A stretch of 64,000 bases of DNA from contig NZ_FNUC01000003.1 in the NCBI RefSeq assembly GCF_900106035.1, positions 2,163,501-2,227,500 on the forward strand, written 5' to 3'. The translations under genes and the position numbers were made by a program. Every line of letters starts with the position of its first letter. The first letter of the stretch is position 1. Positions 2,604 through 62,344 of this stretch are shown piece after piece. This DNA is from Jiangella alba (GTDB taxonomy: Bacteria > Actinomycetota > Actinomycetes > Jiangellales > Jiangellaceae). The notes beneath the pieces were generated by a model. That model worked only from the letters and a program-made list of their open reading frames with translations, was not told where the DNA came from and made no database searches.

Positions 2604-2903
2604 GTGCCCGACCGACCTGAGATCGTCTGCATCTGCGGCTCTACGCGGTTCGTGGACGAGATGCGTGCGGCGAACCGTGATCTGACCTTCGCAGGTGTCA
2701 TCGTCGTCGCGCCAGGCGAAGCAGACGAGTTGATCACCGACGTGCAGAAGACCGCGCTGGACACCCTCCACCTGCGCAAGATCGACCTGGCTGACCGGGT
2801 TCTGGTGGTCAACCCAGGCGGGTACATCGGCGAGTCCACGAGCAGGGAGATCGCATACGCCACCGCCACCGGCAAGCCGATCTCGTTCACCGATCCCGTC
2901 TGA
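2604..2903 (+). CDS. Small conserved protein, nucleoside-deoxyribosyltransferase-like fold (function unknown)
   Basis: A 99-residue protein starting at GTG. It opens with ICGSTRF, the nucleotide-binding loop seen in the nucleoside 2-deoxyribosyltransferase / DUF4406-like superfamily. It continues with LRKIDLADRVLVVNPGGYIGESTSREI, which has the 'D-x-V-L-V-V-N-x-G-G-Y-I-G-x-S-T' pattern of that fold. It is shorter than true deoxyribosyltransferases (about 150 residues) and may bind rather than process nucleosides. It has no RBS and a -10-like box just upstream, so it may be leaderless. It appears to be a single gene unrelated to the peptidase locus. Confidence 0.7.
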   Translation: MPDRPEIVCICGSTRFVDEMRAANRDLTFAGVIVVAPGEADELITDVQKTALDTLHLRKIDLADRVLVVNPGGYIGESTSREIAYATATGKPISFTDPV

Positions 2904-3010
2904 CTACCCATCCACGGCGAACCGGGCGTGGCTGCGCGAGCGCGGCATCGCCACGATGACGCCGACGTCGTCATCCAACATGCGGGTCACAGTCACACCG
3001 GCGATGGCGG

Positions 3011-3305
3011 GTGGCATCGCTGCGTTCACTGGGTGGCGCCGCTGCTGCGAGGACGACAGTGATGCCACCCACTCGGCGCAGCGATCTCACCCGTTCGCCG
3101 GGGCCCGGCTGTGCGCAGGTTCCAGGGTGCACCGGCATCCGCGCCCCGGCCGGCGTGATCGATGTGAGATCGCTGCGACAACGATGCGGCAACCTGGTCG
3201 CGGACGCGACAGTGTGCTCACATCGATCACGCAGCGATCTCACACCGTTGCGTGGCGCCGCTGCTGCCAGGGCGACAGTGAGGCCACCCAGCCGGCGCAG
3301 CGCTA
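3011..3305. repeat. Nested palindromic intergenic repeat block
   Basis: This fills most of the 399-bp gap between 2903 and 3303, and I see no supportable gene in it. CGTGATCGATGTGAG at 3154-3168 is the exact reverse complement of 3217-3231. GTGAGATCGCTGCG at 3164-3177 is the exact reverse complement of CGCAGCGATCTCAC at 3230-3243. GCAGCGATCTCAC recurs at 3079-3090. A ~53-bp unit beginning GTGGCGCCGCTGCTGC is repeated directly at 3033 and 3252 with a few mismatches. The first unit is itself framed by GTGGCATC (3011) and GATGCCAC (3061). The second unit runs to the stop codon of the GntR gene. It is probably a REP-like or regulatory palindrome cluster. Confidence 0.6.
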
Positions 3306-3944
3306 GGGGTGCGTGAGGTGCCGCCGCATCAGTGCCTCGGCGGCCGCGCCGTCACCCGCCTCGATCAGGTCGACGAGGTCGAGGTGCTGGGCGGCGGCGG
3401 CCGCGAGGGCGCCCCGCTCGACGAACGGGGCGAGGACGGCCAGCCGGGTCTGGTCGCAGAGCCGGGAGATCAGGTCCACGAGGCGCTGGTTGCCCGCGTA
3501 GCCGGCGAGCCGGAGGTGGAAGCGGCGGTCGCCCCGGTGGTAGGCGATCAGGTCGCCGGCGCTCGCGCGGCCGGCGATCTCCCGGGCGAGCTCGCGCAGG
3601 GCGGGGACGTCGCGGCGGGGGATCGACGCGGTCGCGCGGCGGGCGGCCGGGGGCTCGACCAGCAGACGCAGGTCGGTGATCTCGTCGAGGTCCTGCTCGG
3701 ACACCTCGGCCACGCGGAACCCCTTGTTCGGCACCGCCGACACCAGCCCCTCACCGAGCAGGTCGAGCAGCGCCTCACGCACCGGCGTCGCGGAGATCCC
3801 GAAGCGCTGCCCGAGACTCGGCGCGGAGTACACCGTGCCGGGCTCCATCTCGCCCGAGACGATGGCCTCGCGCAGGGCGCGGGCGACGCTCACCCGCAGC
3901 CCTTCCTGCTTGGGAATCGCGGCGAAGGCCGGCATGGACGTCAC
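3303..3944 (-). CDS. GntR-family transcriptional regulator with FCD ligand domain
   Basis: 213 residues. The N-terminal winged helix (about residues 15-80) has the GntR pattern: 'L-R-E-A-I-x-x-G-E-x-x-P-G', then SATPVREALLDLLGEGLV. The C-terminal all-helical FCD domain (about 90-210) carries the spaced His/Asp/Arg residues usual for FadR-subfamily metal or carboxylate sensing (YHRGDRRFHLRL). It is the last gene of the leftward peptide-transport operon, 7 bp after the SDR, so it probably controls that operon and perhaps the divergent one. A TCTAGTGCCTAGA palindrome in the control region at 11668 is a candidate operator. Confidence 0.93.
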   Translation of the reverse strand: MTSMPAFAAIPKQEGLRVSVARALREAIVSGEMEPGTVYSAPSLGQRFGISATPVREALLDLLGEGLVSAVPNKGFRVAEVSEQDLDEITDLRLLVEPPAARRATASIPRRDVPALRELAREIAGRASAGDLIAYHRGDRRFHLRLAGYAGNQRLVDLISRLCDQTRLAVLAPFVERGALAAAAAQHLDLVDLIEAGDGAAAEALMRRHLTHP

Positions 3945-62259: not shown

Positions 62260-62344
62260 TGTCCGAGGGGGGACTTGAACCCCCACCCCCTTGACGGGGA
62301 CTAGCACCTCAAGCTAGCGCGTCTGCCTATTCCGCCACCCGGAC
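62260..62344 (-). tRNA. tRNA-Leu (anticodon GAG)
   Basis: 85 nt on the minus strand. The acceptor stem is GTCCGGG/CTCGGAC with discriminator A. The D-arm region is GGCGGAATAGGCAGACGC. The anticodon stem CTAGC/GCTAG encloses TTGAGGT with anticodon GAG. The long variable arm is CCCCGTCAAGGGG-like, as in class II tRNAs, and the T-arm is GGGGGTTCAAGTCCCCCC. CCA is not encoded. Confidence 0.95.

Follow-up and report, generated by a model that had tools for sequence, protein, structure and literature searches.

What kind of sequence is the block of nested repeats at positions 3003-3302 of the window (the whole 64,000-nucleotide stretch of the Jiangella alba genome that was analysed), lying between a small 99-aa gene and a convergent GntR/FCD regulator gene? 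A sequence-only reading had offered a REP-like element, a bidirectional terminator or a small structured RNA as candidates. The block is a cluster of two complete copies and one truncated copy of a dispersed REP-like element, and on balance we lean toward placing it within a REP-like system having a non-HUH partner.

Repeat block and dispersed family

The block resolves into two nested hairpins of ~90 bp each (copies A and B) and a truncated third copy, C (Table 1), which replace the single long hairpin of ~90 bp envisaged in the sequence-only reading; the overlapping inverted pairs, the recurrent motif and the direct unit at both ends that it described were all recovered. Members of the direct repeat lie 219 bp apart, and the recurrent 13-mer, GCAGCGATCTCAC, present three times in the block, has four matches in the window when one mismatch is allowed, the average over 100 shuffles being 0.17. 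Folding of 3000-3310 surpassed 100/100 shuffles, with z-scores of -6.05 and -6.52 for RNA of the + and - strands, respectively, and -4.44 for DNA. Copy B is nearest to the dispersed copies of the genome, showing 81-83% identity to three other loci, and homology with sister genomes restarts at ~3291-3303, near the end of copy C. Rfam interrogated at the gathering score gave no match in the block and a single match in the whole window, a tRNA at 62260-62344; a structured RNA known to Rfam was accordingly discarded.

Table 1. Element copies, outer-arm motifs and adjoining genes at the block
Feature	Window position	Strand	Genome position	Remarks
Palindromic element copy A	3003..3098	-	G000:C3:2166503-2166598 (CM R1 match)	Complete; canonical orientation on - strand; covariance model (CM) R1, 78 bits; inverted repeat 3008-3044/3057-3093
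Palindromic element copy B	3156..3251	-	G000:C3:2166656-2166751 (CM R1 match)	Complete; CM R1, 100.6 bits; inverted repeats 3160-3202/3205-3247 and 3153-3175/3210-3232
Truncated element copy C	3249..3302	+		Direct repeat of 3030-3083, 54 nt, 89% identity; stops at GntR stop codon
Outer-arm 13-mer GCAGCGATCTCAC, copy A	3078..3090	+
Outer-arm 13-mer GCAGCGATCTCAC, copy B left arm	3164..3176	-
Outer-arm 13-mer GCAGCGATCTCAC, copy B right arm	3231..3243	+
Small 99-aa gene	2604..2903	+		Convergent with GntR gene; no Pfam match at E<=0.001
GntR/FCD regulator gene	3303..3944	-		Right-hand convergent neighbour; Pfam GntR and FCD

That the element forms a family in Jiangella, with a definable anatomy, we regard as close to certain. 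In its ~90 bp the motif GTG-N6-CTGY occurs as four units spaced 22 bp apart, two in direct order and two inverted about a loop (> > loop < <). An alignment (A3) of 44 of the sites in hand, from which near-identical copies were omitted, shows GTG and CTG, four times over, to be the most conserved positions, with the central base of GTG weakest in the inner right unit; the 22-bp spacing holds in 41/44 left halves and 42/44 right halves. GTG and CTG are separated by six variable bases, which in part change together with their pairing partners: the covariation score of 0.188, reached in 0/500 shuffled alignments, exceeds their 0.143 and falls to 0.098 or less when the alignment is slid, with two of five measures not above shuffles (84/500 and 61/500). 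Inspection by eye revealed neither a GTAG or CGTC tag at the consensus ends of A3 nor target-site duplications of the bare hairpin, and no clean single-element empty site was defined.

Dispersal of the family is evident in the 7.68-Mb genome containing the window (G000), where GCAGCGATCTCAC occurs nine times exactly and 33 times with one mismatch, against 0 and 4 occurrences, respectively, of a reversed-pattern control. A covariance model built from eight copies (CM R1), run within the taxonomic family only, retrieved matches at E<=1e-3 from 10/12 Jiangella and 12/22 family genomes, including two of other genera (G017 and G018). Matches range from 0 to 114 per genome, a tally made on both strands among 150 scored candidates each that does not represent copy numbers, and presence of the element is patchy among close Jiangella species. 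Copies and conserved structure thus occur across Jiangella, in keeping with the sequence-only reading. A pattern requiring exact arms matched two of 60 relatives, G000 and G003; it missed G001 and G009, both rich in elements, and is therefore too strict to serve as proof of absence outside the family. Scanning of genome contigs with another pattern yielded eight stretches of J. muralis and one weak match in a Demequina MAG (L139), whose 17 bits look like chance; it was not accepted as a family member. Accessible parts of the paper describing the J. gansuensis genome (PMC5292007) carry no mention of palindromic repeats.

Further features of the family were observed in individual genomes. G017, of another genus, has elements of the same architecture with the outer motif GTGGAGTTGGTGC instead of GTGAGATCGCTGC. 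At one of its loci (L189 4905-5030) a single unit, an 18-bp CACGGAGTGGAGYTAGTG-like sequence, is amplified to a tandem array adjoining a palindrome. A second palindrome family in this genome, GTGATCGTTGCCGG (L191 1126-1199, L196 4025-4142), occurs 12 times in 77 kb against 0 for its control, and is close in sequence to hairpins flanking a gene of the candidate partner family (see below) in G016 (L220). Many of 20 J. muralis copies (L119-L138) lie within a non-coding mosaic of 400-600 bp that starts near CTTCGCTTGGTCTCCGAAACTCCGACACTCGAACC; in this mosaic two palindromes occur ~135 bp apart.

The block is absent from its own site in at least four sister genomes (G003, G007, G009 and G010), where both of its flanking genes are present and ~110-360 bp of different sequence separates the aligned parts; in G008 the GntR side alone is kept. 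The 99-aa gene, the product of which is 2-deoxyribosyltransferase-like by eye, is found at this site only in G000 and has copies of 93-94% identity elsewhere in three sisters (G007, G002 and G004), indicating that the intergenic site is variable. At the equivalent site of G007 (L179 400-490) we observed an unrelated palindrome, GTTGATCTTGGAGT...ACTCCAAGATCAAC, which suggests that the site is an insertion hotspot.

A candidate partner gene

One gene of G000 (C4:2495404-2496345) lies between two hairpins of the element, and hairpins also adjoin its orthologues in G001, G002, G004, G008 and G009. The N-terminal part of its product corresponds to an AbiEi-type winged helix (PF13338 AbiEi_4, 25.2 bits against a cut-off of 25; PADLOC AbiEi, 61.9 bits), and the G012 homologue scores 30.6 bits with PF13338 against the same cut-off. 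Scores of the C-terminal part with DUF559, 13.0 and 17.3 bits, are under the Pfam cut-off of 20.6, and a profile search of the PDB with the partner protein gave no significant hit, the one in the C-terminal part being 3r3p (E 0.44), a mobile-intron protein that we take to be a Vsr-like homing endonuclease. Twenty homologues share invariant E201, P233-D234, E245 and H252, in the pattern E ... PD ... ExD ... H; because of these conserved E/PD/ExD columns, together with the insignificant 3r3p hit, the C-terminal domain looks like a predicted nuclease of the PD-(D/E)XK/DUF559-like (Vsr-like) type.

Neighbours of the gene in G000, judged by eye, encode an ABC-transporter ATPase and TypA, and no DUF1814 AbiEii toxin gene was seen beside it. 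Throughout Jiangella it occupies one inherited locus, between the ABC-transporter gene and typA (L042 6243-7453), where its orientation in G009 (L186) and G002 (L209) is the inverse of that in G000, G001, G004 and G008. As the inverted gene copies are only ~70% identical (their flanks, ~92-96%), we ascribe this to an old rearrangement; an invertible cassette was set aside on the same evidence.

A link between the palindrome family and this AbiEi/nuclease-like gene appears probable from several comparisons. The six Jiangella genomes with a full-length gene yield 16, 98, 21, 19, 114 and 7 CM matches (both strands, 150 scored candidates per genome), and the six without it 8, 5, 0, 2, 1 and 0; the two series have one overlap (exact one-sided p=0.002, relatedness ignored). 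Elements are thus kept where the full-length gene is missing in G003 (8 matches) and G005 (5), and the gene is accompanied by only seven in G002; in G010, with a single match, internal deletions have disrupted the gene, and remnants of hairpins lie beside it. Six genomes of other genera (G012, G013, G015, G019, G020 and G021) encode a full- or near full-length homologue and give no match to the Jiangella-trained CM; elements in G012 carry a motif of their own, and in the other five none was shown beyond the flanks of the gene.

These flanks provide a second line of evidence. The best palindrome score reached 17 or more beside 17/29 family genes and 46/323 control genes, the latter being other genes of these loci and genes in stretches of G048 (medians 17 and 13, p=9e-7; independence does not hold among the 29 genes, and the loci used for the test are those in which the flank rule was first noticed). 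For the 18 closest homologues alone the value is p=2e-4, and 12 of the 29, scoring below 17, have no strong flanking palindrome. A repeat common to both flanks exceeded the 99th percentile of controls in 11/29 family genes and 2/323 controls, one of these two being the G000 family gene itself, mis-included; both the palindrome and the shared-repeat scores are gapless. The flanking motif varies by gene, being AGGAAGCTTATGG in G015, CTGGAGGGTTTGACA in G020 and GAACCGCAGAAGGYGCCC in G048. A homologue from Rhodococcus ruber (30% identity, outside the 29), picked by protein similarity and its flanks inspected afterwards, lies between two palindromes that share one motif and each score 22. Searches of a plasmid collection with four family proteins returned a sole match, the same single Rhodococcus record, and phages searched with the Rhodococcus protein yielded none.

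Spread of the cognate motif through the genome is present in some lineages and was not observed in samples of three others (G048, G015 and G020). In G017 the motif flanking the gene is also the dispersed motif, occurring 30 times against one for the control in 77 kb of loci selected for the element, and 0 times in the loci of G001, G009 and G000. The G012 motif occurs six times exactly, three beside the gene, all in G012 and none in nine other genomes; with up to two mismatches it has 16 occurrences in G012 (three adjoining the gene) against one for the control, and 0-13 in the nine others, where it exceeds the control in G015 (13 vs 6), G019 (9 vs 2) and G016 (5 vs 1). In samples representing ~5-10% of each genome, the G015 and G020 motifs were found 0 and 0 times in 400 kb each, and the G048 motif showed no clear dispersal in 396 kb, with 0 exact occurrences, two against 0 for the control when one mismatch was allowed, and 10 against four when two were. 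The dispersed element of G018, read at one site, is unlike the motif beside the G018 gene. The motif of a G003 paralogue, present four times in 400 kb of G003, occurs also in G048 (three) and G015 (one), with 0 in G020, and consequently lends little to the case for spread. In a literature survey that placed subscription papers and preprints outside its scope, we recognised no work tying this protein family to palindromic repeats.

The principal rival to a mobile-element interpretation invokes the same gene and hairpins: the latter would be operators of an AbiEi-type autorepressor, and the dispersed copies other binding sites or decoys, with no spread driven by a nuclease. Precedent exists in the accessible text of one study (PMC7319586), according to which AbiEi of Streptococcus agalactiae binds two 23-bp inverted repeats and Rv2827c of Mycobacterium tuberculosis four 23-bp repeats, in each case in its own promoter; the 22-bp spacing of units in the element and the frequency of upstream hairpins beside the homologues agree with this. 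We nevertheless think it unlikely, as the same hairpin also occurs downstream in G012, G015, G020, G048, G016p and R. ruber, the dispersed copies prefer convergent gene ends over promoters (see below), and the G000 gene, with its ABC ATPase and TypA neighbours, was seen by eye to have no DUF1814 toxin gene beside it.

Chromosomal settings of the element

Sites of the element are intergenic: 0/69 fall inside called genes (simple gene caller, overlaps of up to 25 nt allowed). When each of the 69 loci is represented by a single site, 35 lie between convergent genes, 24 between tandem genes, six between divergent genes and four at contig edges. Convergent junctions make up 35/66 of those with a copy and 45/322 of others in the same loci (p=6e-11), and divergent junctions 6/66 and 74/322, respectively (p=0.01), the count of 66 having also taken the second hairpin of L042.

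By eye, the palindrome is found alone and also within several MITE-like elements whose ends are unrelated. One of these, ~300 bp long and having GAGTCCGAATGGGTTC as its inverted ends, contains the palindrome at three places (L044 5575-6987, L046 4621-6034, L045 4788-5079), and two of the three copies adjoin, at CTAG, a transposase element that is IS481-like by eye and whose copies are 99.8% identical. The hairpins might accordingly be regarded as passengers in ordinary MITEs moved by various transposases, given that, by eye, the palindrome is contained in three or more MITE-like elements whose terminal repeats are unrelated, two of which adjoin IS481-like transposase gene copies in G000. Against this, many copies in G001, G017 and other genomes conserve only the ~90-bp unit amid unrelated flanks, and an identical type of unit resides in several unrelated MITEs, which suggests that the unit moves, or is selected, by itself; we consider the passenger role decidedly improbable.

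Least probable, in our estimation very much so, is that the hairpins serve the host at the 3' ends of genes, as bidirectional terminators, as mRNA stabilisers or as supercoiling sites, and are not self-mobile. Their strong excess between convergent genes and very stable folds on both strands would fit such a role; against it stand their patchiness among close species, a comparable bias of REP elements toward convergent and unidirectional junctions reported in accessible parts of PMC3733652, and the outcome of a scan of 2850-3400 for a G+C stem followed by a T-run, in which no site resembling an intrinsic (Rho-independent) terminator was found. An intrinsic terminator was rejected on this result, and any terminator at the block would be factor-dependent or lack a T-tract.

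Proposed mechanism and comparison with known systems

From the repeat family and its four-unit architecture, its intergenic and convergent bias, the gene between hairpins, the excess in gene flanks and the co-occurrence within the genus, we infer a mobile system in which the partner protein binds, cuts and mobilises the element. The AbiEi-type winged-helix protein, with its nuclease-like C-terminus, would bind the GTG-N6-CTGY units, four of which at 22-bp spacing would suit a binder of the AbiEi type by analogy with the 23-bp repeats cited above. It would then nick or cut DNA at or near hairpin copies; repair or replication would copy elements to new intergenic sites, and new copies would survive mainly at the 3' ends of genes. 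That the elements spread by such nuclease action seems to us an evenly balanced proposition. More tentatively, and with somewhat less than even confidence, we suggest that Actinobacteria possess their own unrecognised counterpart of REP/RAYT. Its proteins, joining an AbiEi winged helix to a PD-(D/E)XK-like domain, would form a large family, and each would bind a palindrome of its own, be encoded between two copies of that palindrome and, in some lineages, have seeded it through the genome. If so, many unexplained intergenic palindromes of actinobacteria would belong together with many genes now called AbiEi antitoxin or hypothetical protein, as the complementary parts of a single system; a function would be hinted at for some of those genes, and the pairing of protein and repeat would become testable, the predicted binding sequence of each gene being readable from its own flanks.

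Several known arrangements differ from this one. Units comprising a gene plus a hairpin brought to mind an integron attC-like cassette, which was set aside because the Jiangella copies are scattered and form no cassette arrays. ERIC, RPE and Correia/NEMIS sequences are intergenic imperfect palindromes of ~100 bp present in many copies; the Jiangella element is set apart from these by four units 22 bp apart, some covarying bases and its link to a gene family. The 3r3p protein is tied to a mobile intron, whereas no intron was seen in Jiangella, where an AbiEi N-terminal domain and flanking palindromes are found instead. Type IV toxin-antitoxin systems have AbiEi antitoxins, such as that of S. 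agalactiae and Rv2827c (PMC7319586), with which the system shares a winged helix and inverted repeats (23 bp there, up to four in number), but the Jiangella protein has an additional nuclease-like C-terminal domain and no toxin partner seen at the G000 gene, and its palindromes lie on both sides of the gene and are dispersed in the genome.

The closest likeness is to REP/RAYT systems, with which the Jiangella family shares dispersed extragenic palindromes, a 3'-end bias, lineage-specific motifs and a candidate gene flanked by cognate palindromes. REPs are described, in the portions seen of a 2013 paper, as 20-40 bp in length with a GTAG or CGTC tag (PMC3733652), whereas the Jiangella element is of ~90 bp with four units; and the predicted partner is an AbiEi-winged-helix plus PD-(D/E)XK-like protein, not a Y1/HUH transposase. 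The Y1 transposase domain (PF01797) was detected at E<=0.001 in 0/12 Jiangella genomes and in 5/14 genomes of the control rings. The REP-like assignment of the sequence-only reading consequently stands as regards an extragenic palindrome dispersed genus-wide with a bias to convergent ends, and fails as regards membership of the known REP/RAYT class, which was ruled out because of the missing Y1 transposase, the lack of a tag by eye and the different size and sequence. A 2010 paper reported no RAYT homologues outside gammaproteobacteria and describes RAYT genes as always flanked by two inverted REPs (PMC2817692); the 2013 paper extends related tyrosine-transposase genes to a handful of further taxa, Koribacter among them, and notes CGTC repeats seemingly without a dedicated transposase (PMC3733652). 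Flanking of the RAYT type is encountered here with a non-homologous gene, in 11/29 homologues as against 2/323 controls and in R. ruber, though not in every homologue. Known partners of REP elements have so far come from a single enzyme class, that of the RAYT (Y1) transposases; a second, unrelated pairing of enzyme and palindrome would mean that evolution arrived at this arrangement at least twice.
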